A DNA stretch of 64,000 nt from Cristatella mucedo (Eukaryota > Bryozoa > Phylactolaemata > Cristatellidae): the NCBI GenBank assembly GCA_009760855.2, contig WPIO01000012.1, forward strand, positions 7,127,501 to 7,191,500. Reading direction: 5' to 3'. Positions within the stretch are counted from its first letter, which is position 1, and the number at the start of each line of letters is the position of its first letter. Shown piece by piece: positions 1 to 44,664 of this stretch. The translations under genes and the position numbers were made by a program. A model generated the notes under the pieces. The model saw only the letters and a list, made by a program, of their open reading frames with translations. It searched no databases and had not been told where the DNA came from.

Positions 1-49
1 TGGCCATTAACTACAGTTGGCGCATTACTGCTTGCACTTATTTCAGTCA

Positions 50-55
50 TTTAAT
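50..55 (-). promoter_or_regulatory. Candidate polyadenylation signal, E2 copy 1
   Basis: ATTAAA on the minus strand about 110 bp past the stop at 166. No AATAAA was seen between them. The variant hexamer is common in animal genes. Confidence 0.45.
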
Positions 56-165
56 ACTCAGCAATTCATTTGTATAAGCGTTCAATATAACATATCACGT
101 TGTCATAATTGACGTATCTACTTCGTGTTCGATTCCGGTTCAGAATCTTCCACTTGGGCGAGCCA

Positions 166-1386
166 TTATGGTGACGCGTCTTCCAATTGGGCGAGCGATT
201 CCGTGACCGTTTCCGCTACCTTCCGCCGATACTCCGAGTAATTGTTTTCAAACAAGTCGGCAGCTTCGGCGCTTGTAGGGCTGTCCGGATTAGGGTCAGA
301 CAGCAAAGACTACCAAAGAAATGGTGAACAAAAGCTGACGGTATCTGCTCAAGCAGTCGTCGCTATGTGCATCCAGCAAGGACGCATCCACGCTTGTAGT
401 CATACCTGAATCGAGACGAGAAGAGACCGAAGGTCGTACGTCGGGGTCCATTTCTCTTTTAAAATGTCGAGGCATATTGAGCCATCCCCATAAACTGCAA
501 TAGGAAGGTAAAGGTTGACTCGATAAAGCATCCACTTTGTGAATTGAAGCAGAGGTGCCGTCACGGCTATTTTCATACTTTCAGCAACCATTTGCTAAAT
601 TTTAATTGTAAGCTTTGTGTATAATGTAACTAACTTCTCGTCGCTGGAGCCGCTTGGCTTCGCATACGTAATGCTTACTGTTTGGATGGTACATCCTCGA
701 TACAAACTTTACGCTGGGGGCCGTCAAGGGGTATCCCTCGGGAAACGTCACCTCCAATTTAAACAAGCCTCCTTCAAAAGGCGTGTCATCGGGCCTGCAA
801 AAAACCTTTCGCTTTTTAAATAGCTTTCATCTTCCAAGTGGCTCCAATGTCCGAGTTGCAGTGAAACGCGGTGGGAAATTAACGTCAGCATCGCCAAGCC
901 ACGCACCGAAAGCATGTGCACTCTTTGCCAATCAATGTTGCCCAGGAAAAGCAGTGCATAACTGTTTGAAAGAAGCTGCAAACGCTCGGCATTTCTCGCA
1001 TGTACTCACCCATGCATGTATATATCCCAAAGATACAGGTCATCTCCTCTTGGAGAGCCATAAATATCTTCAGTTATGCCGTCGGCGCATCTGCAATGTA
1101 AAGTAACTGTTAAGCCAGCTCTTGTAGGCGACAGGCTCTGATGTTTTCGTAGTTGCTTCCCGCGAGCCCGTTGTATTGAAAGTGGATTGCAGTGCCAGAC
1201 GATGACTTTACTTAATTACAACGGGCATTGACGATGTTGCTGTGCACTGCGTCAAAATATCGCGCCTTTGATTCAAAGCTTGGACTACAGTGACGTTGTT
1301 CGCTAAACGGCCTCCAGAAGCTTGTGCATACAGCTGGATGCTTACTGTATGAGCTCTTGCTTGATCCTGCGCGCACGTCCGTCCAT
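166..1386 (-). CDS. RAD6/UBE2-type ubiquitin-conjugating enzyme E2, array copy 1
   Basis: Accepts ubiquitin (or a ubiquitin-like protein) from an E1 as a thioester on a cysteine and passes it on, usually with an E3. Five minus-strand exons: 1386-1346, 1090-1010, 794-679, 494-406, 309-166. They join in phase (2,2,1,0) to 156 residues, the usual length of a bare UBC fold. Every intron is GT-AG, for example an exon 1 donor GTAAGC and an exon 2 acceptor TTGCAG. Visible motifs: N-terminal helix [20 protein letters not shown] (41-50); [10 protein letters not shown] (62-71); HPN (77-79); GSIC with active-site Cys87 eight residues after the HPN Asn; [17 protein letters not shown] (110-120); last helix with EYRRKV. 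The GSICLDIL and SIQSLL stretches resemble RAD6/UBE2A-B most; the N-terminal third is divergent. A TATA box precedes it. Exons and introns are inferred by hand; the family call is secure, the exact orthology is not. Confidence 0.9.
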
Positions 1387-1460
1387 TTTACGATAATCAA
1401 GGGAGATGTAACGAGTAACTTGACCGACTCCTTAGTGCCTGTTTAGGCCGAACCCAACCT

Positions 1461-1468
1461 CTTATATA
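1461..1468 (-). promoter_or_regulatory. TATA box of E2 copy 1
   Basis: On the minus strand this reads TATATAAG within CACTATATAAGAGG, about 75 bp upstream of the ATG at 1386. Initiation about 30 bp downstream would give a 5' UTR of some 45 bp. It is kept in all three copies. Confidence 0.7.
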
Positions 1469-1549
1469 GTGGGATGATAATGGCTGTGCGTCATAATCAG
1501 CCTTAAAGCAATGGTGAGGTAAAGCAGAGATGCGTAATTGATTACCGTC

Positions 1550-2440
1550 GATGCTGCATTTAGAGCCTCGCCCCAGCATCTAGAAACTGAGCCTTGTGTC
1601 ACCTCTCTATAGTGACAGAGTGTGATTGAGAGGGAGGGAGAGACAGGGCGAGAGAGTGATACATTTCGAATCCAGCAGTATGTGCGATCTTTTACTACCG
1701 ACGGCCAGATGTGGTGAAAGCTGTTGCGGCATTTTCCACGCTTTAATAATATGGCTGTTTCCATATCTTTTCACGCCAGAGAAGCCACTGGTAGGCGGAA
1801 GAGGAGTAGGAAAGGGCTACGGCAGTCCTGTTGATCGGCGGTCCGGTAGATCGGTCGGGAAAGACACCATTCAGCATGAATGCTAGATGCACGGCCTTGG
1901 AAAATCACTTTTGGCAGTAGCTCAGCATGCACTGTAAACTCGGTTGCGCACCTTAATAAATTAAACGAGCGTTTCCTGAGAAGACTAAGTCTCGCCAAGA
2001 TGCCGAGCACAGGTACGCTGAACGAAATCAGCACACCGGAACGCATTTGGTTTGCCCACTGTCTTTTAATTGATGGGACGCTGCCTCCACGTGCGGCTGT
2101 CGCGTCTCTTGAGCGACTCGCTCGCTACGCTCAAGGCTTTATCGGTATTAGTCACGTGTTTCTTTATCCAGGCATGGTTGCTAGAAGTGCTTCGCTCCCA
2201 CCGTAAATATATCAGAGCTCCGAAGCCGTCACATCCCGTTTGCAACCATATTCTTAGAAAGCCAAAAGAGCACGGTGAAAACGTAATGAGCCTCGCCGTT
2301 GTTTAGCAAAGTCGACTATATGCAGACAATATATTCAGCACTGCTAGTATATTGCTAGTGGGTGCAGATCAAGGTCGGAAAATCGGAGTCAGAAAGAGCC
2401 CGGCAAGTGAAATGTTTGTTTACCGAGTCTTGTTGCAAAT
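1550..2440. other. Array unit segment without a recognised gene (unit 1)
   Basis: Upstream flank of the E2 gene, repeated at about 6127-7017 and 10,701-11,484. It contains a GA-rich stretch (1626-1660) and an open frame of 108 codons on the plus strand (1880-2206) that is open in all three copies but matches no family I recognise and overlaps an opposite open frame. Its distant counterpart in 11.65-12.56 kb shows the segment is old. Function unknown. Confidence 0.5.
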
Positions 2441-2524
2441 AGGCGTCAGGGTGAATGTTCTTTCCACTTTGAGCTTACGGCTGCACGAAGCGATAGAATA
2501 ATAATGATCACATTAGGCTTAGTG

Positions 2525-3012
2525 TTTCGATGGTACATCCTCGAAAGGAACCTATCTTGGGCAGCTTCAAAGGATATTCCTCGGGAAGCGTCTCCTTCAA
2601 TTTGAACCAGCCCCCTTTCTAAGGCGTCCTTGGGTTTGCACACAAAACCTTAAGCCTTTCTCACAGGTTTCATCCTCAGTGTGGATCCAATGTCAGTGTC
2701 GACGTGAAACGCTGTGGACCAACGTTAAGTGACCGTAAATCCAGCTGTGCTAGGTGCCAGGTTCCAAATATTTGGTCACGACTTTCCACGCGCTGGCTGT
2801 ATTGACACTGCATTATGCTGCCAGACGTCGATTTTACTTAATTACAACGCGCATAGATGGCAGTGCTATGTACTGCCTCAACATGATGCGGCTTTGGTTC
2901 CTACCTTAAATTACAGTGACACTGTTGGCTGAGAAGCCTCTAGAAGCTGGTGCACACTGATCGACGCTTACTTTATAAGCTCTCGTTTGATCCGATGCCC
3001 ACGCAAGACCAT
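2525..3012 (-). pseudogene. Decayed E2 paralogue fragment (exons 1 and 3), unit 1
   Basis: A 41-bp first exon is intact (3012-2972, MVLRGHRIKRELI plus two bases, donor GTAAGC), the same length and phase as exon 1 of the live gene. About 330 bp further on, 2640-2525 is a clear exon 3 relative (PKDAL, LPEEYPLKLPK, FLSRMYH), but it needs one base removed and one base added to read through, and the splice donor GT has become CT. Exon 2 is missing: the sequence jumps from one flanking intron to the other near 2730. No matching exon 4 was found downstream. It is an old E2 duplicate amplified along with the live gene. Confidence 0.8.
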
Positions 3013-4009
3013 TTGACGAAGACAACAACCTTCTTCGAAACCAACTAATCAAGTGAGATCCAATGAGTAGAGCGAAAATTCGGGAGCGACCAACACTCTC
3101 CTCATTGTTGAGATACAAATCATTTCTTTTAGGTGGAGAATTCACGACGGCCTTACGTCGTAATCAGCCTTAAGAACCTATCCAAAGTGTCTAGTGAAAC
3201 GAATTTCTCCTTCTCGTTATTGGGCTGTGTTTCTTGAAGCAGCCTCAGTTCACTGAAGTAACTTCATGTGTAGACGGTCGGGGGGGGGCAAGGATGACCT
3301 CGTCCTTTTGTCTAAGCGAAGGAGGTCTAAGCACTGCAGGATTGAGTCCAGTTTGCATTGTTAGCTAATGCTATCGAGCCCTAAAATCGTGCATTCCGCT
3401 CGCACATCGTCGGATTGTCATGTTTGTCAAGGCTGGTCAACCTAGGCTGTAGGCCCAAGCGTCGATCTCATTTGTAGCGTACATTGTTCAAGCCGCCTGG
3501 AATCCGGGGCACTAATGTTGTTGGTCAACTGTTACCCAGTGCCCGTACTACCAGTTCACGATCCGTCGGCCAACGCACGACCTTGAGATGAGCTGGCATG
3601 ATGTCGCTAGTTAGTTCGGGTATACCTAAAGTGCCGGTTATGGAAGTCTTCGGAAGTGTTCCGCATCATACTCTGGTAATCGAGTCCACCATTACTTCCC
3701 CAACTCAGCCCTGAAATGACACTGCCGATACATGTGCATTGCACGTGCTGACCGTCTTATTAATATTCTCGAAATATCAAATCATAAAATAGACCACACG
3801 TGTTGAAAGATCATTGATACATGTAAACGTGAAATAACTTTTTGTCCTGTGCGGTAATGTTAAACGTGCTGCCGGAACTGTGAAAAAGCCTGGACTACAT
3901 GACACGATACTGACGCTTTCGTTCGTAGCTATCTTAATTGGCTACCGTTGGTATGACATAGTCATAATTGACGTTATCTATTTCGTCGTCGATTCTGGTA
4001 CAGCATCTG

Positions 4010-4170
4010 CCACTTGGGCGAGCGATTCTGGTTTCTCGTCTTTCAATTGGACGAGCGACTACGAGACCGTTTCCGCTACCCTTCTCCGGCACTCAAGTAA
4101 TTGTGCCCAAACAAATCGGAAGCTTCCGCGTGTTTGTAGGGTATGCGGGATTAGGGTCGGACAGCAACGG
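4010..4170 (-). pseudogene. Decayed E2 last exon, unit 1
   Basis: After an acceptor-like GGTAG, the minus strand from 4170 reads PLLSDPNP and then PTN, clearly related to exon 5 of the live gene. An extra base then shifts the frame to an in-frame TGA. The downstream half (RKVAETV, then ESLAQ-like) is still recognisable in another frame. It lies downstream of no recognisable exon 4, so it is an isolated relic. Confidence 0.75.
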
Positions 4171-4625
4171 CTACCAACAATATCGCTACGTTTACACGAC
4201 TTAAGCATAGGCTAAGTGAAAACCATTGTGTTAGAAACTGACAAGTAATTAGACAGTAAATGACCGTCTGAGCAAAACTGGTAGAAAGGGATAAGACAGC
4301 CCGCTATATTCACACTCACTTTACAGCAAAGAACTGGTAGATCAGGGAAAGTGGCATAAGAACAAATGCTTAGATGACCTGTAGTTAGCTTGCCGGATGA
4401 TACGTTTGTTTTCAAAAATGACCGTCACAACACTGTCGCCATCTCGTTTAGCTACGGCCAGGTTTCTCAAGCACAAGCACTCCATATCCTGGGAGTAAGA
4501 CCTGAGGAACCATGCATCTAATTCCTTCATCCCTAATGGATCCGTTATGCACTCCAAGGCCGGTAACTAATAACGGTGGCCATTAACTACAGTTGGCGCA
4601 TTACTGCTTGCACTTATTTCAGTCA

Positions 4626-4631
4626 TTTAAT
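4626..4631 (-). promoter_or_regulatory. Candidate polyadenylation signal, E2 copy 2
   Basis: ATTAAA in the same place relative to the stop (4742) as in copy 1. Confidence 0.45.
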
Positions 4632-4741
4632 ACTCAGCAATTCATTTGTATAAGCGTTCAATATAACATATCACGTTGTCATAATTGACGTATCTACTTC
4701 GTGTTCGATTCCGGTTCAGAATCTTCCACTTGGGCGAGCCA

Positions 4742-5963
4742 TTATGGTGACGCGTCTTCCAATTGGGCGAGCGATTCCGTGACTGTTTCCGCTACCTTCC
4801 GCCGATACTCCGAGTAATTGTTTTCAAACAAGTCGGCAGCTTCGGCGTTTGTAGGGCTGTCCGGATTAGCGTCAGACAGCAAAGACTACCAAAGAAATGG
4901 TGAACAAAAGCTGACGGTATCTGCTCAAGCAGTCGTCGCTATGTGCATCCAGCAAGGACGCATCCACGCTTGTAGTCATACCTGAATCGAGACGAGAAGA
5001 GACCGAAGGTCGTACGTCGGGGTCCATTTCTCTTTTAAAATGTCGAGGCATATTGAGCCATCCCCATAAACTGCAATAGGAAGGTAAAGGTTGGCTCGAT
5101 AAAGCATCCACTTTGTGAATTGAAGCAGAGGTGCCGTCACGGCTATTTTCATACTTCCAGCAACCATTTGCTAAATTTTAATTGTAAGCTTTGTGTATAA
5201 TGTAACTAACTTCTCGTCGCTGGAGCCGCTTGGCTTCGCATACGTAATGCTTACTGTTTGGATGGTACATCCTCGATACAAACTTTACGCTGGGGGCCGT
5301 CAAGGGGTATCCCTCGGGAAACGTCACCTCCAATTTAAACAAGCCTCCTTCAAAAGGCGTGTCATCGGGCCTGCAAAAAACCTTTCGCTTTTTAAATAGC
5401 TTTCATCTTCCAAGTGGCTCCAATGTCCGAGTTGCAGTGAAACGCGGTGGGAAATTAACGTCAGCATCGCCAAGCCACGCACCGAAAGCATGTGCACTCT
5501 TTGCCAATCAATGTTGCCCAGGAAAAAGCAGTGCATAACTGTTTGAAAGAAGCTGCAAACGCTCGGCATTTCTCGCATGTACTCACCCATGCATGTATAT
5601 ATCCCAAAGATACAGGTCATCTCCTCTTGGAGAGCCATAAATATCTTCAGTTATGCCGTCGGCGCATCTGCAATGTAAAGTAACTGTTAAGCCAGCTCTT
5701 GTAGGCGACAGGCTCTGATGTTTTCGTAGTTGCTTCCCGCGAGCCCGTTGTATTGAAAGTGGATTGCAGTGCCAGACGATGACTTTACTTAATTACAACG
5801 GGCATTGACGATGTTGCTGTGCACTGCGTCAAAATATCGCGCCTTTGATTCAAAGCTTGGACTACAGTGACGTTGTTCACTAAACGGCCTCCAGAAGCTT
5901 GTGCATACAGCTGGATGCTTACTGTATGAGCTCTTGCTTGATCCTGCGCGCACGTCCGTCCAT
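4742..5963 (-). CDS. RAD6/UBE2-type ubiquitin-conjugating enzyme E2, array copy 2
   Basis: Second array copy, same five-exon structure: 5963-5923, 5667-5587, 5370-5255, 5070-4982, 4885-4742, giving 156 residues with HPN (77-79) and Cys87. All donors and acceptors match copy 1. By hand comparison the protein differs from copy 1 only in exon 5 (P115A and S122N) plus at least one silent change. P115 belongs to the conserved DPNPDSP turn after the SIQSLL helix, so P115A may affect the fold slightly. One extra A lies in the intron between exons 2 and 3. Nothing disables the gene in the visible sequence, and promoter and polyadenylation signals are kept. Probably an expressed paralogue, but expression cannot be judged from DNA. 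Confidence 0.88.
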
Positions 5964-6037
5964 TTTACGATAATCAAGGGAGATGTAACGAGTAACTTGA
6001 CCGACTCCTTAGTGCCTGTTTAGTCCGAACCCAACCT

Positions 6038-6045
6038 CTTATATA
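6038..6045 (-). promoter_or_regulatory. TATA box of E2 copy 2
   Basis: Same TATATAAG element and spacing to the ATG at 5963 as in copy 1. Confidence 0.7.
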
Positions 6046-7101
6046 GTGGGATGATAATGGCCGTGCGTCATAATCAGCGTTAAAGCAATAGTGAGGTAAA
6101 ACAGAGATGCGTAATTGATTACCGTCGATGCTGCATTTAGAGCCTCGCCCCAGCATCTAGAAACTGAGCCTTGTGTCACCTCTCTATAGTGACAGAGTGT
6201 GATTGAGAGGGAGGGAGAGACAGGGCGAGAGAGTGATACATTTCGAATCCAGCAGTATGTGCGATCTTTTACTACCGACGGCCAGATGTGGTGAAAGCTG
6301 TTGCGGCATTTTCCACGCTTTAATAATATGGCTGTTTCCATATCTTTTCACGCCAGAGAAGCCACTGGTAGGCGGAAGAGGGGTAGGAAAGGGTTACGGC
6401 AGTCCTGTTGATCGGCGGTCCGGTAGATCGGTCGGGAAAGACACCATTCAGCATGAATGCTAGATGCACGGCCTTGGAAAATCACTTTTGGCAGTAGCTC
6501 AGCATGCACTGTAAACTCGGTTGCGCACCTTAATAAATTAAACGAGCGTTTCCTGAGAAGACTAAGTCTCGCCAAGATGCCGAGCACAGGTACGCTGAAC
6601 GAAATCAGCACACCGGAACGCATTTGGTTTGCCCACTGTCTTTTAATTGATGGGACGCTGCCTCCACGTGCGGCTGTCGCGTCTCTTGAGCGAGTCGCTC
6701 GCTACGCTCAAGGCTTTATCGGTATTAGTCACGTATTTCTTTATCCAGGCATGGTTGCTAGCAGTGCTTCGCTCCCACCGTAAATATATCAGAGCTCCGA
6801 AGCCGTCACATCCCGTTTGCAACCATATTCTTAAAAAGCCAAAAGAGCACGGTGAAAACGTAATGAGCCTCGCCGTTGTTTAGCAAAGTCGACTATATGC
6901 AGACAATATATTCAGCACTGCTAGTATATTGCTAGTGGGTGCAGATCAAGGTCGGAAAATCGGAGTCAGAAAGAGCCCGGCAAGTGAAATGTTTGTTTAC
7001 CGAGTCTTGTTGCAAATAGGCGTCAGCGTGAATGTTCTTTCCACTTTGAGCTTACGGCTGCACGAAGCGATAGAATAATAATGATCACATTAGGCTTAGT
7101 G

Positions 7102-7589
7102 TTTCGATGGTACATCCTCGAACGGAACCTATCTTGGGCAGCTTCAAAGGATATTCCTCGGGAAGCGTCTCCTTCAATTTGAACCAGCCCCCTTTCTAAG
7201 GCGTCCTTGGGTTTGCACACAAAACCTTAAGCCTTTCTCACAGGTTTCATCCTCAGTGTGGATCCAATGTCAGTGTTGACGTGAAACGCTGTGGACCAAC
7301 GTTAAGTGACCGTAAATCCAGCTGTGCTAGGTGCCAGGTTCCAAATATTTGGTCACGACTTTCCACGCGCTGGCTGTATTGACACTGCATTATGCTGCCA
7401 GACGTCGATTTTACTTAATTACAACGCGCATAGATGGCAGTGCTATGTACTGCCTCAACATGATGCGGCTTTGGTTCCTACCTTAAATTACAGTGACACT
7501 GTTGGCTGAGAAGCCTCTAGAAGCTGGTGCACACTGATCGACGCTTACTTTATAAGCTCTCGTTTGATCCGATGCCCACGCAAGACCAT
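7102..7589 (-). pseudogene. Decayed E2 paralogue fragment (exons 1 and 3), unit 2
   Basis: Unit 2 counterpart of the fragment at 2525-3012. The first exon is at 7589-7549, and the frame-shifted exon 3 relative starts near 7217. It shares the same lesions, so it decayed before the units were amplified. Unit 3 ends before this segment. Confidence 0.78.
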
Positions 7590-8584
7590 TTGACGAAGAC
7601 AACAACCTTCTTCGAAACCAACTAATCAAGTGAGTTCCAACGAGTAGAGCGAAAATTCGGGAGCGACCAACACTCTCCTCATTGTTGAGATACAAATCAT
7701 TTCTTTTAGGTGGAGAATTCACGACGGCCTTACGTCGTAATCAGCCTTAAGAACCTATCCAAAGTGTCTAGTGAAACGAATTTCTCCTTCTCGTTATTGG
7801 GCTGTGTTTCTTGAAGCAGCCTCAGTTCACTGAAGTAACTTCACGTGTAGACGGTCGGGGGGGCAAGGATGACCTCGTCCTTAGGTCTAAGCGAAGGAGG
7901 TCTAAGCACTGCAGGATTGAGTCCAGTTTGCATTGTTAGCTAATGCTATCGAGCCCTAAAATCGTGCATTCCGCTCGCACATCGTCGGATTGTCATGTTT
8001 GTCAAGGCTGGTCAACCTAGGCTGTAGGCCCAAGCGTCGATCTCATTTGTAGCGTACATTGTTCAAGCCGCTTGGAATCCGGGGCACTAATGTTGTTGGT
8101 CAACTGTTACCCAGTGCCCGTACTACCAGTTCACGATCCGTCGGCCAACGCACGACCTTGAGATGAGCTGGCAGGATGTCGCTAGTTAGTTCGGGTATAC
8201 CTAAAGTGCCGGTTATGGAAGTCTTCGGAAGTGTTCCGCATCATACTCTGGTAATCGAGTCCACCATTACTTCCCCAACTCAGCCCTGAAATGACACTGC
8301 CGATACATGTGCATTGCACGTGCTGACCGTCTTATTAATATTCTCGAAATATCAAATCATAAAATAGACCACACGTGTCGAAAGATCATTGATACATGTA
8401 AACGTGAAATAACTTTTTGTCCCGTGCGGTAATGTTAAACGTGCCGCCGGAACTGTGAAAAAGCCTGGACTACATGACACGATACTGACGCTTTCGTTCG
8501 TAGCTATCTTAAATGGCTACCGTTGGTATGACATAGTCATAATTGACGTTATCTATTTCGTCGTCGATTCTGGTACAGCATCTG

Positions 8585-8745
8585 CCACTTGGGCGAGCGA
8601 TTCTGGTTTCTCGTCTTTCACTTGGACGAGCGACTACGAGACTGTTTCCGCTACCCTTCTCCGGCCCTCAAGTAATTGTGCCCAAACAAATCGGAAGCTT
8701 CCGCGTGTTTGTAGGGTATGCGGGATTAGGGTCGGACAGCAACGG
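8585..8745 (-). pseudogene. Decayed E2 last exon, unit 2
   Basis: Unit 2 counterpart of 4010-4170, with the same inserted base and small substitutions. Confidence 0.73.
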
Positions 8746-9200
8746 CTACCAACAATATCGCTACGCTTGTACGACTTAAGCATAGGCTAAGTGAAAACCA
8801 TTGCGTTAGAAACTGACAAGTAATTAGACAGTAAATGACCGTCTGAGCAAAACTGGTAGAAAGGGATAAGACAGCCCGCTATATTCACACTCACTTTACA
8901 GCAAAGAACTGGTAGATCAGGGAAAGTGGCATAAGAACAAATGCTTAGATGACCTGTAGTTAGCTTGCCGGATGACACGTTTGTTTTCAAAAATGACTGT
9001 CACAACACTGTCGCCATCTCGTTTAGCTACGGCCAGGTTTGTCAAGAACAAGCACTCTATATCCTGGGAGTAAGACCTGAGCAACCATGCATCCAATTCC
9101 TTCATCCCTAATGGATCCGTTATACACTCCAAGGCCGGTAACTAATAACGGCGGCCATTAACTACAGTTGGCGCATTACTGCTTGCACTTATTTCAGTCA

Positions 9201-9206
9201 TTTAAT
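9201..9206 (-). promoter_or_regulatory. Candidate polyadenylation signal, E2 copy 3
   Basis: ATTAAA in the same place relative to the stop (9317) as in copy 1. Confidence 0.45.
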
Positions 9207-9316
9207 ACTCAGCAATTCATTTGTATAAGCGTTCAATATAACATATCACGTTGTCATAATTGACGTATCTACTTCGTGTTCGATTCCGGTTCAGAATCTT
9301 CCACTTGGGCGAGCCA

Positions 9317-10537
9317 TTATAGTGACGCGTCTTCCAATTGGACGAGCGATTCCGTGACCGTTTCCGCTACCTTCCGCCGATACTCCAAGTAATTGTTTTT
9401 AAGCAAGCCGGCAGCTTCGGCGTTTGTAGGGCTGTCTGGATTAGGGTCAGACAGCAAAGACTACCAACGAAACGGTGAACAAAAGCTGGCGGTATCCGCT
9501 CAAGCAGTCGTCGCTATGTGCATCAAGCAAGGACGCATCCACGCTTGTAGTCATACCTGAATCGAGACGAGAAGAGACCGAAGGTCGTACGTCGGGGTCC
9601 ATTTCTCTTTTAAAATGTCGAGGCATATTGAGCCATCCCCATAAACTGCAATAGGAAGGTAAAGGTTGGCTCGATAAAGCATCCACTTTGTGAATTGAAG
9701 CAGAGGAGCCGTCACGGCTATTTCCATACTTTCAGCAACCATTTGCTAAATTTTAATTGTAAGCTTTGTGTATAATGTAACTAGCTTGTCGTCGCTGGAG
9801 CCGCTTGGCTTCGCATACGTAATGCTTACTGTTTGGATGGTACATCCTCGATACAAACTTTACGTTGGGGGCCGTCAAGGGGTATCCCTCGGGAAACGTC
9901 ACCTCCAATTTAAACAAGCCTCCTTCAAAAGGCGTGTCATCGGGCCTGCAAAAAACCTTTCGCTTTTTAAAGAGCTTTCATCTTCAAAGTGGCTCCAATA
10001 TCCGAGTTGAAGACAAACGCGGTGGGAAATTAACGTCAGCATCGCCAAGCCACGCACCGAAAGCATGTGCACTCTTTGCCAATCAATATTGCCCAGGAAA
10101 GGCAGTGCATAACTGTTTGAAAGAAGCTGCAAACGCTCGGCATTTCTTGCATGTACTCACCCATGCATGCATATATCCCAAAGATACAGGTCATCTCCTC
10201 TTGGAGAGCCATAAATATCTTCAGTTATGCCGTCGGCGCATCTGCAATGTAAAGTAACTGTTAAGACAGCTCTTGTAGGCGACAGGCTCTGATGTTTTTG
10301 TAGTTGCTTCCCGCGAGCCCGTTGTATTGAAAGTGGATTGCAGTGCCAGACGATGATTTTACTTAATTACAACGGGCATAGACAATGCTGCTGTGCACTG
10401 CCTCAAAATATCGCGCCTTTCATTCCAAGCTTGGACTACAGTGACGTTGTTCGCAAAACAGCCGCCAGAAGCTTGTGCATACAGCTGGATGCTTACTGTA
10501 TGAGCTCTTGCTTGATCCTGCGCGCACGTCCGTCCAT
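9317..10537 (-). CDS. RAD6/UBE2-type ubiquitin-conjugating enzyme E2, array copy 3 (divergent C-terminus)
   Basis: Third copy: exons 10537-10497, 10241-10161, 9945-9830, 9645-9557, 9460-9317, again 156 residues with HPN and Cys87 intact. Against copy 1 the changes read are Y38C, S68N, S122N, D127G, F129L, E130K, S134L, A149V and P156L, with one silent change (codon 117). Exons 1 and 4 are identical to copy 1, while exon 5 carries seven of the nine replacements. Exon 5 encodes the C-terminal helices, which in E2s help set specificity and partner contacts. The frame and splice sites are undamaged, so it is either a diverging functional paralogue or a gene under relaxed constraint. It lies in the truncated last unit but is itself complete. 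Confidence 0.87.
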
Positions 10538-10611
10538 TTTACGATAATCAAGGGAGATGTAACGAGTAACTTGACCGACTCCCTAGTGCCTGTTTAGTCC
10601 GAACCCGACCT

Positions 10612-10619
10612 CTTATATA
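10612..10619 (-). promoter_or_regulatory. TATA box of E2 copy 3
   Basis: Same TATATAAG element and spacing to the ATG at 10537 as in copy 1. Confidence 0.7.
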
Positions 10620-11484
10620 GTGGGATGATAATGGCCGTGCGTCATAATCAGCCTTAAAGCAATAGTGAGGTAAAACAGAGATGCGTAATTGATTACCGTC
10701 GATGCTGCATTTAGAGCCTCGCCCCAGCATCTAGAAACTGAGCCTTGTGTCACCTCTCTATAGTGACAGAGTGTGATTGAGAGGGAGGGAGAGACAGGGC
10801 GAGAGAGTGATACATTTCGAATCCAGCAGTATGTGCGATCTTTTACTACCGACGGCCAGATGTGGTGAAAGCTGTTGCGGCATTTTCCACGCTTTAATAA
10901 TATGGCTGTTTCCATATCTTTTCACGCCAGAGAAGCCACTGGTAGGCGGAAGAGGGGTAGGAAAGGGTTACGGCAGTCCTGTTGATCGGCGGTCCGGTAG
11001 ATCGGTTGGGAAAGACACCATTCAGCATGAATGCTAGATGCACGGCCTTGGAAAATCACTTTTGGCAGTAGCTCAGCATGCACTGTAAACTCGGTTGCGC
11101 ACCTTAATAAATTAAACGAGCGTTTCCTGAGAAGACTAAGTCTCGCCAAGATGCCGAGCACAGGTACGCTGAACGAAATCAGCACACCGGAACGCATTTG
11201 GTTTGCCCACTGTCTTTTAATTGATGGGACGCTGCCTCCACGTGCGGCTGTCGCGTCTCTTGAGCGAGTCGCTCGCTACGCTCAAGGCTTTATCGGTATT
11301 AGTCACGTATTTCTTTATCCAGGCATGGTTGCTAGCAGTGCTTCGCTCCCACCGTAAATATATCAGAGCTCCGAAGCCGTCACATCCCGTTTGCAACCAT
11401 ATTCTTAAAAAGCCAAAAGAGCACGGTGAAAACGTAATGAGCCTCGCCGTTGTTTAGCAAAGTCGACTATATGCAGACAATACA

Positions 11485-12560
11485 TTCCAATATTGTTGGT
11501 GTTCGTCGCTCTCTGACCTTAATCCTGCCAGCCCTACAAACGCAGAAGCTTCTAATTGTGTTTAGCACAATTACTTAGAGTAACGGAGAAGGTTAGCGGA
11601 AACGGTCTCGGAGTCGCTCGTCGACTGTGAAGACGAAAACTTCTACGTGCGGCAGTCGAGTCTCTTAAGAGCTACACAGCCGTGTTTACTTGCATGACGA
11701 ACCGCGCCCCACTCTGTAGTGATACGTCTTGCGCTGGTGGACAACAGAAGAACGAACACGAGTTGAAGATTTTTCGGCGTCACACGCAGCAAGGGCTGCG
11801 CAGCACCCGCTGCTTCCTTCGCCCAGCATCTAGAAACTGAAGCTTGTGTTACCTATCAATAGTGAGAGAGACAGAGAGACGGAGAGGGCGAGAGCGCGAG
11901 AGAGAGAGTGAGAGCGAGAGAGACACCATTCTCGCTAGCGCGTAAATTGGTGCGGGTACCGAGCTCCAGTGCACAGCCGAGCTCGCTCTCGACCGTTGGC
12001 GTACGTGCGAAAGTGAGCAAAAGACAGGCACAAAAAGGCGACGTCAGACGGTCACGCCGACGCTCTATGGGCGCTTCTCGTTGCCGCCGTGTTCGGCTAC
12101 CGTCGGTGTTGCTACGAGCAGACGTGCTGCTCCCACGAGTCGCTTGCCATGCTCAAGGCTTTACCGGTATTTGTCGCGCGCCCGTTGATAAGGAAACTGT
12201 GGCGAGCGCTGCGCTTGTGGCCTTGTTCCGTCTGAGCATGGAAGCCCCTGTACAGCGTTTGCCGCCACACTCAATGATAAGCCGAAACAACGCTGCAAAA
12301 ATGAAACGCACCTTACAGTAGTTGCCAAAGTAGATGATATGCAGGCATTGTCTGCAGTGCGGCTGAGTAAAAGGCTTGTGGATGCAGTGCGCGGTCCGAG
12401 AGGAGTGCTCAAAACGAGCCGTGCTAGTGACACGTTCACCCAGACACGTTCTATTTAAGCGTCAGCATGACGGACCTTTCTGCTTTCCGATAGCAGCTGT
12501 ACGAAGCGATAGAAATAATAATAATTATATTACTCACGTTTGGTGCTCTATTTCGTATTA
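11485..12560. repeat. Degraded partial array unit flanking the array
   Basis: After the inverted exon 5 relic, 11,640-12,560 follows unit positions of about 1550-2530 with heavy divergence. Shared landmarks include CAGCATCTAGAAACTGA (11,824), a GA-rich run, GCTCAAGGCTTTA (12,150), ATATGCAGGCA (12,338) and the ACGAAGCGATAGAA block (12,502). The E2 genes of the array are nearly identical, so this copy has escaped homogenisation. A possible further E2 exon 3 relic near 12,600-12,800 (minus) is too weak to call. Confidence 0.75.
11500..11640 (+). pseudogene. Decayed E2 last exon in inverted orientation at the array edge
   Basis: Just past the end of unit 3, the plus strand reads LSDLNPASPTNAEA, then TAG, HNYLE, TAA, and then LAETVSESLV. 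This is an exon 5 relative with two in-frame stops, opposite in orientation to every E2 gene in the array. It marks a rearranged boundary and is more diverged from the live exons than they are from each other. Confidence 0.78.
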
Positions 12561-16139: not shown

Positions 16140-16665
16140 CAATCGTGTCGCTCACTTTTAGGTCACTTTATTCTTTGGCTCCAGCCTATCTCTCAGATCT
16201 ACTGCCCCACCAGCCCAAGCAGCGTACCACTCGCTTTTCGGAATCCAACAGTTTACCAATACCTCGTACAAACCTCAAATCCGTTGGAGACTGTGCATTT
16301 AGTTCGTATGCACCCAAAGCTTGGAACTCCTTCCCGACATGCGTAAGAACATCCCCTGACTTGACCACATTTAAAAAGAACTGAAAAACACACCTATTTA
16401 GGACAGCATTTAGTGGGTCCCTGTGATTTGTCCTTCATGTGCTTATGCCTGCTGACACTGTGCATGCTGCCACTAACCATATTTGCATGCTGACCCTGTG
16501 CATGACACCCCTAACCATGTTATTCATGTTGTTTGTTTATCAAGCATGATTTTACTCACCATTCAATTGCATTTCCCTTTACAGCAAATGTGAAGCGCCT
16601 AGAGAGAGATTGAGTTCTCTGAGGGCACTTTATCAAGTGCATTATTATTATTAATATTATTATCT
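16140..16665 (+). mobile_element. LINE family A 3' end
   Basis: The plus strand encodes broken pieces of the LINE reverse-transcriptase C-terminal region ([30 protein letters not shown]), then the conserved 3' region GATTGAGTTCTCTGAGGGCAC and an ATT-repeat tail. Stops and shifts make it non-functional. Confidence 0.85.
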
Positions 16666-18640: not shown

Positions 18641-18748
18641 TAGGTGAATCATAATTTTGGGGAACTAAGTCCGAGGCTGAAAACAAAATGCGGAAGAGAT
18701 GCTAGGGTGAAGACACTACTGTTATATAAGATCCAAAAGGTCGCTCAC

Positions 18749-20300
18749 CTAAATGTTGACGGGTTTAATCCTGCTGCTTTCCCGAATTCGCTGAATCTGG
18801 CTGTTGTTAAAGTTAGTGAAGCTTGTCACTCTGACGAGACCATCGTCAACAAACTTCTCTACTGCCTAAACGCAATACGTGTGTTGCGTCTTATATGCAA
18901 AGGTCGATTATGCGAGACTGTCTTCAGCTGTTTTCATTCATTTCCTAAAGACGAAGTGCGATTTTCCTATCTTGAACTCAAAGATTTCTCTTACGAGACC
19001 ATCATCATAGGGCTAATTGCTTACTTAGCGCGACATGAGAGCTTTTCCGAAAATACCGTCATTCAACTACTGGCAATGATTAATTGGGAGACAGAAATCC
19101 CGAAACCGCTGCTGATTTCTTCAAATTATTGAGAACAAAGCTTGTGCTAAACCTTTTGACAATAAATTAGGTTTTCGATTCCTACACTTCAAACCGTTAG
19201 TGACAAGTCTTTTTTCTCCCTACAGGTCCGAGACTTTGAAACTCCTTTTCAGCAGTACTGCACTGCTACTAAGATCGTCATGTTGCTGCACTTGTTCTCA
19301 GCTCCACCGCAATAAATTGGGGCACTTGTTCTCAGCTCCACGGCAATAAATTGGGGCCAATAGTTAAGTCCAAATGGATCGAAAACTGCGGTGTGAGCAA
19401 CATCTCATGGACTGAGAAATTAGCAGCTCGTGACTGCGACCGACCGTTGGTCTGAATGAATCCATTTGATTAACTGTAGGTTCTCGGTAGTTTCTTTCAT
19501 TATTTCTTTTTCCATTAGTTAACGCAGTACGTCAGAGTCGCTTTGGGACTGCAACATCGGTCATAAGTAAAATAACAATCTCTTACTTTTGACACCTTAC
19601 GAATCCATGCTCTCTTCCTTTATGGTCCCAAACACAGTGTGAGACTATCTGTACTAGTCTAAATAAAGGATTAAAGAAAAAGTGAAAGAATAACATCATG
19701 GTTGTAAGGGGCACTTCATGTCGTACTTGAAATGAATTGGTTGTGATTTAAGCAGTTGAACTCAATATAACAATATAGCTATGCGCTTTGTTCCCATAAA
19801 GTCTTGCTTATAAGTAGCATACTTAGACTAAAGGCGGCCGAAATATGAAGCAATTAGAGACCGGTGTAAGTCTTTTTGGCCTAACATCAGCCGGTGCCGC
19901 GGCGGCAATGGCTAGCTGCTTGAGAAATTGATGGGCAAATTTGTAGTGCTAAAATTAGTTTGGAAGGAATCGTCGGCGAGATGTCACTCAATAGTGGTAA
20001 ATGAAGTGGCTTGCAAGAATTGTTGGACATTACGCACAGCAAGACGTCTAACAAGCATTAAAGTGAACAAGGTTGCAAAAACTGTCGAATCCCAGTGAAT
20101 GAAATGACAGGAAGTCTCAGCTTACATTCAGCCCTCACTTTCCACCTAAAGACAATGCGCTCATCGAGACGAGTACGCCATGGAAACAATAAAGCCAGGG
20201 TCAAGTACCTTGGTGACGATGAAAAGATCCTCGCGTTTCAAAACATCTTCCTTGAGTGATTCTTCATGAATAATGTGATATTTTAAATCCATGCTAGGAT
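18749..20300 (-). pseudogene. Decayed aldo-keto reductase copy (exons 5 and 2 remain)
   Basis: The minus strand 18,865-18,749 is a 117-bp relative of exon 5 of the 44-58 kb gene, equal in length. It reads VEKFVDDGLVRV and then TNFNNSQIQRI; the last codon CAG (Gln) has become TAG, and GLSNFN has become SFTNFN. The acceptor TTTAG and a donor GTGAGC survive. At 20,300-20,209 the minus strand ends in [11 protein letters not shown] and GTACTT, an exon 2 relative whose upstream half, with the Asp and Tyr of the active site, is eroded. Exons 3 and 4 were not found between them. It is a dead copy in the same orientation as the main gene. Confidence 0.75.
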
Positions 20301-20924
20301 AATTCAGTGTCACGTGGTACCACACTCCCGCTTTGAGGCCTTCATCACTCCGTCAGGGCTCATAAAATTAGCGCTAACAAACGATAGTTCAAAACTGATG
20401 TGAACTACCATCCGGAATACCCTTTCGTTATTTTTCCTCGCACCAATGAGAACTTAGATCGGGCACATTAGCGTACTTGTGATCGTGGGACTCGCGTAGC
20501 CTCTATTGTTTTCTGTTCCCAATAGTCAACTTCTAATCTTTCTTTTTCCGTATCCTTATTGCTTGTATCACCTTAACCTTGATTTAGACATTGATAGTCT
20601 CACCGACAATGATCAGGCTGACCATATTCAAGGCAAGAATAGATTACCTTCCTTGATATGGTGGTAAATTCATATGTATTTTCTTCTCGTTGGAGGATGC
20701 ACGTGAGCCCTTGGGGGGGCCAGTCTTAAATCAGCAAGGCAGTTTCAAATCGAGCTTTTTAATTGCACTATTTTAATGCATTTACAGCATCAATACTTAG
20801 GCTACCCTACTCGTGCTACGTCTCGTAGGCGGGAAATATAATCAATCTGGGTATTCAGTTTCCAATTTTCTTGCCTTCATTATTGTTCGTAACCACTCCT
20901 GTTATAAAAGTCGCAACTTCCTAG

Positions 20925-20978
20925 AAAGAGATTGAGTTCTCTGAGGGCGCTTTACCAAGTGCATTATCATAATTAACT
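20925..20978 (+). mobile_element. LINE family A 3' tail only
   Basis: CTAGAAAGAGATTGAGTTCT, then GAGGGCGCTTTACCAAGTGC. A severely 5'-truncated copy. Confidence 0.7.
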
Positions 20979-22215: not shown

Positions 22216-22839
22216 AATATTCCCTAAATTCTCTAAAGACATGTCAACGGGAAAAAAGGTAAAAAGAGCGATATATAAAAATTCACACCAAATAATCAAA
22301 AGAATTTGAAGAGAAAAAATTCCAACACTTCACACCAAATAATCAAAAGTACTTGAAGAGAAAAAATTCTAACACTAACTCCAAATTAAAACTTGTTGCA
22401 ATTCTTGTGAGAAATCCTTGTACGTGGCAAAAGTGGTCAACAACTTTGATACTTGTTTTCTTCGCTTGCCAAAAAGCTACAGATTATAATCTCTATCTTT
22501 TCGGGGGAAAAAAGAAAAAAGTACGAAATTCATGTATACTATTTTTATTCACGAATTCATTATACATTAAATAGTATTCATTGTATTTATACATATAGTA
22601 TTTATAAGTACTTTACTCGTGTAGACTTGCGAAAGCACGATATGCTCGGTTGAAGCAGCTGGTGTTTGGATTACAATCATTTGGTTATCTAACCATTCTA
22701 ATACCATTAGCTTGGCATAGTAGCTTTTGGCTAATAATTTCAATGAAAGATTTGGACACTTAGTGGCTGCTAAATTGATACCTAATATATATGACGTACG
22801 CGATAGAATCACTGATGTGCGAGGCGAAGACGACGTGAG

Positions 22840-23485
22840 GACAGTAGAGGAGGAGGAGGAGGAGTACAGAGGAGGACAGTAGAGGAGGAGGACAGAGGAG
22901 GACAGTAGAGGAGGAGGAGGAGGAGAACAGTAGAGGAGGAGGACAGAGGAGGACAGTAGAGGAGGAGGACAGTAGAGGAGGAGGAGGAGGAGGACAGAGG
23001 AGGACAGTAGAGGAGGACAGAGGAGGACAGTAGAGGAGGAGGACAGAGGAGGACAGTAGAGGAGGACAGTAGAGGAGGAGGACAGAGGAGGACAGTAGAG
23101 GAGGACAGAGGAGGACAGAGGAGGACAGTAGAGGAGGAGGACAGAGGAGGACAGTAGAGGACGAGGAGGAGGACAGTAGAGGAGGAGGAGGACAGAGGAC
23201 AGTAGAGGAGGAGGAGGAGGAGGACGAGGAGGAGGACAGTAGAGGAGGAGGACAGAGGACAGTAGAGGAGGAGGAGGACAGAGGAGGAGGACAGTAGAGG
23301 AGGAGGACAGAGGACAGTAGAGGAGGAGGAGGACAGAGGAGGAGGAGGACGACGAGGAGGAGGACAGTAGAGGAGGAGGAGGAGGAGGACAGAGGAGGAC
23401 AGTAGAGGAGGAGGACAGTAGAGGAGGAGGAGGAGGAGGAGGAGGAGGAGGAGGAGGAGGAGGAGGAGGAGGAGGAGGAGGCAAG
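22840..23485 (+). repeat. Purine minisatellite (GGA)n with GGACAGTAGA insertions
   Basis: Irregular tandem arrangement of GAGGAGGACAGTAGAGGAGG-type units ending in uninterrupted (GGA)n near 23,415-23,480. The plus strand is almost all purine. Long open frames on the minus strand (Ser/Pro/Leu runs) come from the repeat and are not genes. Confidence 0.95.
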
Positions 23486-23960
23486 CGAGTACAGAGAGGA
23501 AGACCGAATAAAGGAGAGAAAGAAGAACGAAGAGAAATATAGAAAATGAGAGAAAAAAGAACGAGAGAGGTATAGATAAAAATGGAAGGACGAGCTAGAG
23601 AGCAAACTAAAAGAAAATTGAACTGGAGAAAAAGTGCGATAGAGAAACTTATAGAAAGAGAGAGATAGGGAAGTTGAAACGAAGGACAGAAGGAGAAATA
23701 AATACAGAAAAGAGTCAAATGGAGAGTGGGGGATAGAAAAAGAGTGGGAGAATGAGTGAGAATGAAAGACAAATGTAAAAAGAAAGTGAAACAGATTGGA
23801 GAAAATGAGATGGAGAGTGAGAATTAGAGACACTGAGAGGGAGAAAGTGCTGAAGAGAGAAAGAAATATCTTATTCTAGGCCAAGATACTAAAAGATATA
23901 GAGCGAGGCAGGTCGATAAAGTGAGAGAACAAGAGAGAGTGACACAAAAACAGACAGAAA
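23486..23960 (+). repeat. Purine-rich extension (GAGAAA-type)
   Basis: Non-tandem but strongly purine-biased DNA continues the minisatellite, with many GAGAAAG and GAGAGAG words. Together the two form a strand-asymmetric tract of about 1.1 kb. Confidence 0.8.
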
Positions 23961-26068: not shown

Positions 26069-27163
26069 CTAGTACAACTTCTTTGCAGCGCTGAGGCCGT
26101 GCTCGGCGAGACTTCGCTCGCGCAGCAGGTAGCCGAGCGAGAACCACCTGTCGTAGCGCGGGTCGTACGGATAGACCTGGATGCCGACCTTGGGCCGGTC
26201 TGCGTTCTGACCGGTGTACATCGCCATGATCACGTTCTGGTCGACGTTGGCGAGGCCATCGTCCAGAAACTTTTCCGTGTATCGGACGTACTCGTCTGCG
26301 AACGCCTCCATCACGGAGACGCGAGCTAAGAAAAAGCAGCCGCAAACCCACACGGGACTGTCCTTCATGATGCGCTCCACGCTCAGGTTGAGCAGGGGAC
26401 GCACCTCGTCGAACGCCACCAGGTTGTCGTCGTGACCCGGGGGCACGCCGATATAGAACGGGCTGCGATCGCCGGCTTGAGCCAGGTCTCTGAACTCGCC
26501 CACATCCAGCCAGGCTACGTGCCGAGTGCGAAAGTAGTTTCGCTGACACGCCTGTTTCATCGACTCAAACTTGGCGTGCATCGCGCAACTGTACAGCGGG
26601 TAAACCGTGTTGGGCACCCACTTGGGATAATCCGGCCGGTCCACGATCTCCTTTATCCTTCCGGCCAGACGGAACGACCACATGGCGTTTCGGTTCGTCA
26701 TGATGACCTCGCTCGGTAGGCCCTGTCGCGCTTCCTTGAATATGGCCGCTGCTTTGGCGTCGTCGAAATAGCCCACGACCGGGTTCTGGATGTTGGCAAA
26801 GAAGCGAAGCCAGCCGTAGTAAAGGTCGGGGTGCTTGCGGTTCGACTCGTCCTGCTTGGGTATCTCACCAATGTTCCAGTAGCCGGTGACGAGCGTGACG
26901 CCGTCGCGCAAGCTCCCTTCCTCTGTCGCCGCCTGGCGACGAGTCGCAGCGGGAGACTCGCGGACTTCAGCGGAGGACGAGCCGGACTCGCCAGGGCGAG
27001 CGAGCGCGCATCGAAGCTCGGAGCTCGCTCGTAGGAAGACTAGGACGGCGGCGGCCGCGAGGCCGATCATCGGCAGGACTCTCAGCATGCCGCGGCCGCG
27101 GCCCGCATACGCTCGGCGGCAGAGCAGATGCAGCTGCGAACGCCATCCGACACCTGGCGTCAT
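26069..27163 (-). CDS. HtrL/YibB-family putative glycosyltransferase, type II membrane protein
   Basis: Single open frame of 364 residues, no intron. Residues 26-48 (LPMIGLAAAAVLVFL) are a hydrophobic signal anchor preceded by several Arg, so a Golgi type II topology is likely. A short Ala/Ser/Glu-rich stem follows, and then from about residue 88 the family core: VTLVTGYWNIGEIPK, WLRFFANIQNPVVGYFDD, NAMWSFRLAGRIKE, YPLYSCAMHAKFE, VAWLDVGEF, PVWVCGCFF and ANVDQNVIMAMY. The WLDVGEF motif supplies an Asp as in nucleotide-sugar transferases. The family (Pfam HtrL_YibB) is known from bacterial lipopolysaccharide loci and from animals such as nematodes and molluscs; its substrate in animals is not established. 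An internal ATG at 27,088 just before the anchor is an alternative start. The gene looks intact and lies in a CpG-rich island. Confidence 0.85.
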   Translation of the reverse strand: MTPGVGWRSQLHLLCRRAYAGRGRGMLRVLPMIGLAAAAVLVFLRASSELRCALARPGESGSSSAEVRESPAATRRQAATEEGSLRDGVTLVTGYWNIGEIPKQDESNRKHPDLYYGWLRFFANIQNPVVGYFDDAKAAAIFKEARQGLPSEVIMTNRNAMWSFRLAGRIKEIVDRPDYPKWVPNTVYPLYSCAMHAKFESMKQACQRNYFRTRHVAWLDVGEFRDLAQAGDRSPFYIGVPPGHDDNLVAFDEVRPLLNLSVERIMKDSPVWVCGCFFLARVSVMEAFADEYVRYTEKFLDDGLANVDQNVIMAMYTGQNADRPKVGIQVYPYDPRYDRWFSLGYLLRERSLAEHGLSAAKKLY

Positions 27164-27599
27164 TTTCCGTCACCGCGCATTGCCCTGGAACGGGGGCAAC
27201 GGACTGAATTGGAAATAAGGCTTGCGGCTAGACATGCACAGCCGGACTAGGACGGCAAAACGTGTAAAAAAAGGAACTTCCTTAGCCTGGGATGGCAAAG
27301 AGGCTGGCAGGCAGAGCCGCGAATAGGTGAGCGCTCGTGCGCACGACGGCACCGCTGTGGGAGCGGAGGGCCGTTGCGGCGACAACGGATTCGTGTCGCT
27401 TGCAACTCCTCTCTCGGCGGCGCTTCGCTTTTCTTTCTTTGGGCTGCCGCTCTGGCTGCTCTCATTCTCTCACCTAGCCTCGCTCTTCGACGGGCCATCT
27501 TGGCTCAATCACTGTTGCTTGTTCTGGTTGTAATTATGTGTTAATAAATATAATATTAATTAATTAATAATAAACAAAATAATATTAATCATAACGATA

Positions 27600-30045: not shown

Positions 30046-30686
30046 CCAAGAAGAATAATAACAGTAGCGCATTAGTATCCTATTGTACTATACTCCCTTT
30101 CGATTTCTTAATTTCATTTTACAGCGTATGATCTTTCGCAGCAATTACCTGAATACGAAACTAACTTGACAAACTACCGACGAACCACACTTTTCTATTT
30201 TGCATTCCTAATAATAAGCCTCAACAAATTTCACATACCCATCAGTCCATTGCTGAAACTATGTCGCATAACTCATTAAAGTGTATCATAATCTGATACA
30301 AACTTCCTAAGTTTGCCTTTTTTACGAGACGCTCCTTATAATATGTAGCTCAGGGGAATGCTTTCGCAGGCTAGATTACAAGACGGCCGCGCTCACTTGT
30401 GTGGCATTAAGGATTTTAAAGGATCTGCGCCGCAATACAAACATCGTCCGAATCAAGTACTTAACCAAACGCGTAGCTTGAGCTTCACGGATGCCTGAAT
30501 CTCACCAGCACAGGGATGATCATAACCGGATGTGACGCATGAACTTTGTCAGAATGTCGGTCACTGTTTTGCAGGCTGACTATGCAAGAGGTTATTTCAG
30601 GAGCAACTGTATTCAAGACTTGAGGAATAAAGCAGCATAGGTAGTGTGAATGCCGACTTTTAGGATTCAGGTTTTCTCGCAACAGC

Positions 30687-30690
<4 letters not shown>

Positions 30691-30732
<42 letters not shown>
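30691..30732 (+). repeat. (GA)n microsatellite
   Basis: About 21 GA units. The duplicate arm has (CT)n at the matching place (44,599-44,692). Confidence 0.95.
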
Positions 30733-30736
<4 letters not shown>

Positions 30737-30867
30737 ATACGTATTTTATGTTTCTAGCGTGAGCCATACAAAGTCATAACCGGTAAGTGAGACCAATTTT
30801 AATTTATTTAGCGATATCACTAGGTCAATTAACAAGCTCTCTCAGCTTAACACGCTGACACTAAATG

Positions 30868-31027
30868 CTTCATGTTACTTTCACGACCTCGGTCCCGAGA
30901 TCGTGGGATCGATTCCTGCGGTGGGCAATCCTTTATCGTCACTGCAAGCGGTGCTGATAGCCGTACAGGCTCTTCTGTCGCTATAAAAAAGAGGCTGTTT
31001 AATCAGCTCGGATTTATTTATTTTATT
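30868..31027 (+). repeat. tRNA-derived SINE-like repeat
   Basis: ACGACCTCGGTCCCGAGATC, GGATCGATTCCTGCGGTGGG, then the shared body and a TTTATT-rich tail. It is absent from the matching place in arm 2 (near 44,490), which gives clean insertion borders. Confidence 0.85.
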
Positions 31028-31172
31028 TATTCTTTTTCAAAGAGACCAATTTTTATTTCATTTCGATATAATATGGTGGCAAGTCCTTGCTTTGTTGGGC
31101 TCTGCGGCAATGAGCTTCGTCAACTTCTATATCCCTCGTAAACTATCGACAAGCACTTTTTATTTCCGGTAG

Positions 31173-31338
31173 GAGCAAGGTGCCGACAGTTTCTGTGATG
31201 GAAAACGCTGTGGTTCAACAGCTGGCTAAAAATTACTGCAAAGAGCCAGCGCAGGTTTTGTTGAGAAATCCGATTCAGCGCTGAATCGCAGATATCCCAC
31301 AGAGTACTAACGCCGACAAGATTTGATCCAACTTTAAA
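31173..31338 (+). pseudogene. Dead copy of aldo-keto reductase exon 7
   Basis: 166 bp, the same length as the live exon at 44,336-44,171, with acceptor GGTAG kept. It reads [20 protein letters not shown], then [12 protein letters not shown], then PIQR followed by TGA, and later DKI followed by TGA before SNFK. The cofactor-loop IPKS has become IPQS and the donor GTGAGT has become GTGATT. Two stops with no indels indicate decay by point mutation after duplication. It lies inside the inverted duplication. Confidence 0.88.
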
Positions 31339-31519
31339 GTGATTGAGTTGCATGTGGCTGCATGGAGCACGTGAACATGAAAGCGGCAAAAGTGCGGCTG
31401 CAATGGCTGTTTTAAGAATTCCACGCCTAAAGTATCCCTCAAGCTTAGATATGTGGAAAACCCTTGCTTATCAAGGTTGGCTCTCTTTTTAGTCTTACTG
31501 TGCACAAACAGACAGACAG

Positions 31520-31524
<5 letters not shown>

Positions 31525-31576
<52 letters not shown>
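31525..31576 (+). repeat. (CA)n microsatellite
   Basis: About 26 CA units. The matching place in the other arm has only a short GTGTGTGCAC, so it expanded after duplication. Confidence 0.95.
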
Positions 31577-31579
<3 letters not shown>

Positions 31580-32050
31580 TAAAAGTGAGTGACAGAAACT
31601 TAAAGTCGATGCGTTGCTTGATTTGGAGCCACTACGGGTCAGCGAGAAGTGGTGTGATGTGGAAACTGCCACACTCGCCACAGACAAGCATAGCTGCTGA
31701 GTTTCATATCAATTATGAGCGCCTGATTGTCCAGGCCGGTAGACCAGCAAACAGTGAGTTGGAGAAGTTGAGACGGGATGTTAAAAATGCATCGACCAAT
31801 ATGAATGGAATATCTCTTCTAAGAAAGCCCAAATTTTAGCAATGTTACATAGTAGCTGACAGTAGGCAAAAATTACCATGGAGCTGATATGTTCTATTGA
31901 AAGGTAACTTTGGAACAGCACACTTATATTTCCTGTGGATGTAATAAGAGATATGCTAGCTGGGCCAATTTTGATCATTAGGCTTTCCAATTTCAGAGTC
32001 GCGCATGGTTTTCTCTTAACTAGTAAGCTGGTTTTATCGTCATTCATTTA
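31580..32050 (-). mobile_element. LINE fragment shared by both duplication arms
   Basis: The reverse strand encodes decayed reverse-transcriptase C-terminal sequence (RKPC, LKLESLMIKIGPASISLI, YLSIEHISS, YCQLLCNIAKIWAFL). The other arm has the same fragment at 43,510-44,000, so the insertion predates the duplication. Confidence 0.8.

Positions 32051-44596: not shown

Positions 44597-44664
<68 letters not shown>

Follow-up and report, generated by a model that had tools for sequence, protein, structure and literature searches.

The RAD6 family of ubiquitin-conjugating (E2) enzymes, with RAD6, UBE2A and UBE2B, has a conserved N-terminus, MSTPARRRL, and works with the partners Rad18, Bre1 and Ubr1. 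A further enzyme, UBE2C (UbcH10), serves the anaphase-promoting complex as its E2. Surveys of the UBC gene family in plants, judged by their titles and the opening lines of their abstracts, mention tandemly duplicated E2 genes as a general kind. In the portions of the open-licence literature covered by a search without the organism name, no description of an E2 array of the kind reported here was found. We analyzed a stretch of 64,000 nucleotides of Cristatella mucedo DNA (contig WPIO01000012.1, positions 7,127,501 to 7,191,500), which is called the window below. Its left part is occupied by a tandem array with at least three nearly identical intact E2 gene copies, interspersed with broken older copies. 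We consider it likely that a divergent E2 gene from the RAD6/UBE2C group, probably still coding for an active enzyme, was recently amplified in tandem through unequal crossing-over to give the array.

The intact copies, A1, A2 and A3, were obtained by exon assembly and translation. Each has five exons of 41, 81, 116, 89 and 144 nt, which make up a coding sequence of 471 nt including the stop codon and specify a product of 156 residues. All 12 introns (four in each of the three copies) begin with GT and end with AG, and none of the three frames is interrupted by an internal stop. A first-pass annotation of the same DNA had described three five-exon genes with identical splice layout and open frames, and the assembled models bear this out. 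It had also taken the copies for intron-bearing genes and not retrocopies, with which we agree: the retrocopy reading was rejected because introns are present in A1–A3. The catalytic residues that it reported as kept, HPN (residues 77–79) and Cys87, were found in each translated copy, the cysteine lying eight residues past the asparagine of HPN. A UBC-domain search, which it had recommended, revealed a UQ_con domain in the A1 protein (Pfam, E 1.3e-45, 154.8 bits compared to a cut-off of 27) that begins at residue 7 and covers positions 1–139 of the 140-position profile. Judged by sequence, membership of A1–A3 in the UBC-domain E2 family is certain. Every copy has a TATATAA element starting 82 nt 5′ of the ATG, a start context with A at −3 and G at +4, and an ATTAAA element 110 nt 3′ of the stop codon. 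The promoter and polyadenylation signals mentioned by the first-pass annotation are therefore present in all three copies as consensus matches, which are not evidence of use.

A search of the PDB with the array protein gave 282 sequences under E 1e-10. Among the best 60 of these 282, RAD6 types lead with 158–143 bits and are followed by UBE2D (128 bits) and UBE2C (126 bits); 16 of the top 17 entries belong to the 16 sequences lying within E 1e-60 of yeast RAD6, and the remaining one, 5v0r, is named only “Ubiquitin-conjugating enzyme”. Yeast RAD6 (1ayz), UBE2A (6cyo), 1q34 (which we take to be the C. elegans protein) and the partial sequence 2aak (presumably from Arabidopsis) served as RAD6-type references. 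A1 is identical to UBE2A at 45.8% of positions (65/142), to yeast RAD6 at 46.4% (70/151), to 1q34 at 45.8% (65/142) and to partial 2aak at 52.3% (67/128). These values are below the range within which UBE2A matches the other RAD6 types (yeast RAD6, 68.3%; 2aak, 75.0%; 1q34, 86.6%). Identity of A1 to other E2 enzymes is 42.1% for UBE2C, 40.4% for UBE2D2, 38.2% for UBE2N and 32.0% for UBE2K.

Alignment revealed that the array gene and the RAD6/UBE2A/UBE2B proteins have in common the length of the UBC domain, HPN, the ICLDIL active site, and the PTYD, SIQSLL and PNP.SP motifs. They differ in the C-terminus and in the N-terminus, where the MSTPARRRL sequence, present in yeast RAD6, is replaced by MDGRARRI in all three copies, and in the arrayed state of the bryozoan gene. 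Thus, the term “RAD6-like” used by the first-pass annotation is justified by the best PDB matches, which are RAD6 types, but has to be qualified by the 46% identity to UBE2A and the loss of the family N-terminus; the divergence of the N-terminal third, which it had pointed out, is seen in the E2 alignment. On this evidence the array gene is nearest to RAD6 and should work as an E2.

A maximum-likelihood tree of the kind that the first-pass annotation had suggested was built from 10 rows, with A2 omitted as a near-copy of A1 and UBE2C forming a long branch. The array genes, RAD6 types and UBE2C are grouped with support of 99/99, apart from UBE2D2, UBE2N and UBE2K. The latter three proteins have the UBC domain in common with the array gene, and UBE2N also the GP.D.PFEGG.FKLE motif, but lie across the 99/99 branch from it. 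Within the group the 10-row tree leaves the order open, with a single fork from which the array genes, UBE2C and the RAD6 types all branch, and a 97/93 branch joins only the near-identical A1 and A3. The array gene might accordingly be placed with UBE2C rather than with RAD6, given also that a 13-residue stretch and a YD.R..L.SIQSLL motif are common to it and UBE2C in the alignment and that its identity to UBE2C, 42%, is close to the 46% found for UBE2A. We regard such a placement as unlikely, for UBE2C scores 126 bits compared to 143–158 bits for RAD6 types (best 60 of 282), and the N-terminal extension that precedes the UBC domain of UBE2C is absent from the array gene in the alignment. A search of viral contigs with A1 residues 42–156 produced 16 pattern matches, none of which was confirmed as a relative.

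Self-comparison of the window revealed direct repeats of positions 4577–11487 with 1–6913 (98.6% identity) and of 9153–11487 with 2–2336 (97.6% identity). The array thus occupies positions 1–11487 and contains about 2.5 units arranged head-to-tail, the first 4576 bp and the second 4575 bp long, in good agreement with the 4.58-kb head-to-tail repeat of the first-pass annotation. The right end, which had been placed at 11484, is moved by the self-comparison to a breakpoint at 11487. The left end coincides with the window edge, and the array may continue beyond it. Tandem Repeats Finder, the longest period of which is 500, did not list the array.

Units 1 and 2 differ at just 46 substitutions in 4574 aligned sites, a difference that is spanned by the heterozygosity of highly variable animals. 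Misassembly, or the stacking of haplotypes from a locus with one or two copies, could in principle look this way. We consider this very improbable: unit 3 is more divergent, differing from unit 1 by 2.4% of its length, and unevenly so; 58 of the 60 bases around the junctions between units, at 4576/4577 and 9151/9152, are the same; and the right end of the array is a breakpoint with an inverted relic, D, next to it.

Dead E2 relics were traced by tblastn with the E2 protein and by DNA comparisons. Every complete unit contains, in addition to the intact gene, one relic B and one relic C, which were absent from the description in the first-pass annotation. The exon 3 of relic B carries a stop and a frameshift and has lost both acceptor and donor sites. 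Between units 1 and 2, the stretch holding B differs at 5 of 763 sites and that holding C at 3 of 240. Since the units have the same lesions and differ little, B and C were dead before the young amplification, and therefore at least two rounds of duplication took place at the locus. The locus, then, was duplicated, decayed and was re-amplified. Of the older round, at about 70–80% DNA identity, the window preserves only the broken relics B, C and D. In the younger round, at about 97.6–99% identity, a single intact gene was multiplied, and in the complete units B and C were copied with it. To the right of relic D, old and diverged fragments of the gene A upstream region were also found (11822–11907 compared with 1572–1659, 79.5% identity; 12136–12532 compared with 2114–2515, 64%).

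The A2 protein matches A1 at 154 of 156 residues. A3 matches A1 at 147 (94.2%), and seven of its nine changes, D127G, F129L, E130K and four others, fall in exon 5. The first-pass annotation mentioned neither the exon-5 divergence of A3 nor its 94.2% protein identity. At the DNA level, the coding sequence of A1 differs from that of A2 at 3 of 471 sites and from that of A3 at 10 of 471. In the latter pair, 2 of 327 sites differ in exons 1–4, 8 of 144 in exon 5 (seven of the eight changing an amino acid) and 31 of 750, or about 4%, in introns; copies 1 and 3 differ at 14 of 950 sites of the upstream stretch and at 1 of 165 sites of the 3′ flank. Exons 1–4 are less divergent than the introns (Fisher p 0.0009) and than exon 5 (p 0.0016), whereas exon 5 diverges at the intron rate (p 0.50 for exon 5 compared with introns). 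The pattern hints at purifying selection on exons 1–4 from the separation of copies 1 and 3 onwards. A mask-shift control for patchiness points the same way: a mask of exons 2–4 only, with bounds chosen after the data were seen, was slid through positions 166–1313, and a count as low as that observed was obtained in 37 of 1148 positions.

Several observations weigh against constraint of this kind. The upstream stretch is also low in divergence compared with the introns (p 0.0011), so that low divergence is patchy. A1 and A3 differ by nine amino-acid-changing codons and one silent codon. When all three copies are compared, 12 codons vary, 10 of them changing and two silent, as expected under neutrality, for which the expected changing share is 72% (P(N>=10)=0.31, P(N<=10)=0.89). 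Finally, exons 1–4 contain no silent difference. Because the upstream stretch is low and exons 1–4 lack silent changes, gene-conversion patches that homogenised the copies could be the source of the low divergence.

The exon-5 changes would fit an absence of constraint, with diversifying selection a possible alternative. Gene conversion from relic C as their whole cause was rejected from the alignment, where some exon-5 states of A3 match C and D and others are private to A3; the states matching C and D are probably ancestral. It is conceivable, but quite doubtful, that we see a fast-evolving lineage-specific branch of RAD6-group E2 enzymes maintained as a multicopy array, with catalytic exons 1–4 staying constant and exon 5 diversifying.

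The dead relics interspersed among the copies, the changing-to-silent ratio that is no lower than neutral (9:1 for A1 and A3) and the position of A3, with D127G, F129L, E130K and its four further exon-5 changes, at the array edge would all suit a less favourable view, that the copies go unexpressed and are carried along as passengers while the array decays, intact only by youth, with another E2 elsewhere doing the work. Yet despite about 4% intron divergence between A1 and A3, none of the three copies has acquired a stop, a frameshift or a splice-site loss, and exons 1–4 of these two copies differ at only 2 of 327 sites. We therefore hold passenger status to be the less probable outcome by a wide measure, though it is the alternative that we take most seriously.

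The reading of a recent amplification of a probably active E2 stands on what the sequence shows: a repeat unit, dead relics, and three intact models of spliced genes that encode the catalytic residues and the UBC domain. Through unequal crossing-over between units, one intact gene would have been multiplied along with the relics beside it. We infer expression and catalysis, taking the chemistry by analogy from the E2 family: each product would be loaded by E1 with ubiquitin at Cys87, the HPN asparagine aiding transfer, and would then pass the ubiquitin on together with an E3. Live-looking copies next to dead ones are in keeping with ordinary unequal crossing-over in which copies are born and die, and the array could equally be selected.

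Compatible with such an amplification is the proposal of the first-pass annotation that the array reflects dosage selection or a germline role. A precedent, and no more than that, is the hagfish E. atami, the germline-specific chromosomes of which carry extra copies of ubiquitin-pathway genes such as FBXL4 (25) and KLHL10 (4), according to the parts of the report consulted (PMC10972751). No match for UBE2 was found in the main text of that report, and none for ubiquitin or UBE2 in the main text of a songbird paper (PMC6884545). A dosage or germline role seems improbable to us.

Coordinates of the array and of the other features of the window are collected in Table 1.

Table 1. Features of the window (positions counted from its first nucleotide)
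Feature	Position	Strand	Basis
Repeat unit 1, 4576 bp: A1, relic B1, relic C1, spacer	1..4576		self-comparison, junction comparison
Repeat unit 2, 4575 bp: A2, relic B2, relic C2, spacer	4577..9151		self-comparison, junction comparison
Partial repeat unit 3, A half only	9152..11487		self-comparison
E2 gene copy A1, 156 aa	166..1386; exons 1386-1346, 1090-1010, 794-679, 494-406, 309-166 (with stop)	-	exon assembly, translation, Pfam
TATATAA, starting 82 nt 5′ of the A1 ATG	1462..1468	-	consensus match only
E2 gene copy A2	4742..5963; exons 5963-5923, 5667-5587, 5370-5255, 5070-4982, 4885-4742	-	exon assembly, translation
E2 gene copy A3	9317..10537; exons 10537-10497, 10241-10161, 9945-9830, 9645-9557, 9460-9317	-	exon assembly, translation
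Relic B1: exon-1-like and exon-3-like pieces, without exon 2	2517..3019	-	self-comparison, alignment
Relic B2, lesions as in B1, in unit 2	7094..7596	-	self-comparison, alignment
Relic C1: exon 5 and 3′ flank, frameshifted, with stop	3952..4177	-	self-comparison, alignment
Relic C2, lesions as in C1, in unit 2	8527..8752	-	self-comparison, alignment
Relic D: inverted exon-5 fragment, two stops, just past array right end	11490..11639	+	self-comparison, alignment
Old diverged pieces of gene A upstream region	11822..12532	+	DNA comparison
Aldo-keto reductase exons	44078-44386, 52825-53052, 56072-56323	-	Pfam Aldo_ket_red, E 4.1e-6, 1.6e-8, 6e-13
Degenerate second copy of the 53-kb aldo-keto reductase exon	18744-18872		76.7% DNA identity
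Single-exon frame	26072-27169	-	weak HtrL_YibB match
Large inverted duplicate	30425-32590 and 42969-44986		
Interspersed repeat with common tail	16560-16663, 20920-20976, 34946-35044, 42421-42512, 45508-45610, 51511-51600, 51888-51985, 57618-57721, 62374-62467		
Impure GAG-rich array, about 650 bp	22837-23500		

To the right of the array, the window contains three aldo-keto reductase exons that, being in gene order, probably belong to one gene spanning about 44–56 kb. The degenerate second copy of its 53-kb exon contains a stop, and its 44.3-kb exon is included in a large inverted duplicate with three main pieces that are 82–85% identical. A single-exon open frame that matches HtrL_YibB weakly, with 25.2 bits for a cut-off of 24.1, has 79% GC at third codon positions and sits within a GC-rich stretch at 24–30 kb. 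Many interspersed repeats are found in this part of the window; one of them has a common tail, often ending in an ATT run, and nine of its 13 occurrences are given in Table 1. Searches of viral contigs and of genome contigs with a repeat tail frequent in the window gave no hits. The frames beside it look like a non-LTR (long terminal repeat) retrotransposon, and those submitted to Pfam gave no match. A tRNA search of the window found none, and Rfam at gathering scores gave no match.

We conclude that the array is a real but fairly ordinary recent amplification and its gene a new and divergent representative of a known family of enzymes. The array illustrates the need for splice-aware annotation of small-exon genes in arrays. 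Should the copies be kept constant in exons 1–4 and diversified in exon 5, they would form a set of E2 enzymes with the same chemistry and different surfaces, possibly for the germline. If expressed, the gene would be an E2 of the RAD6 neighbourhood that diverged strongly and was then amplified in intron-bearing form, and it would be useful for learning how much divergence an E2 tolerates without loss of catalysis.

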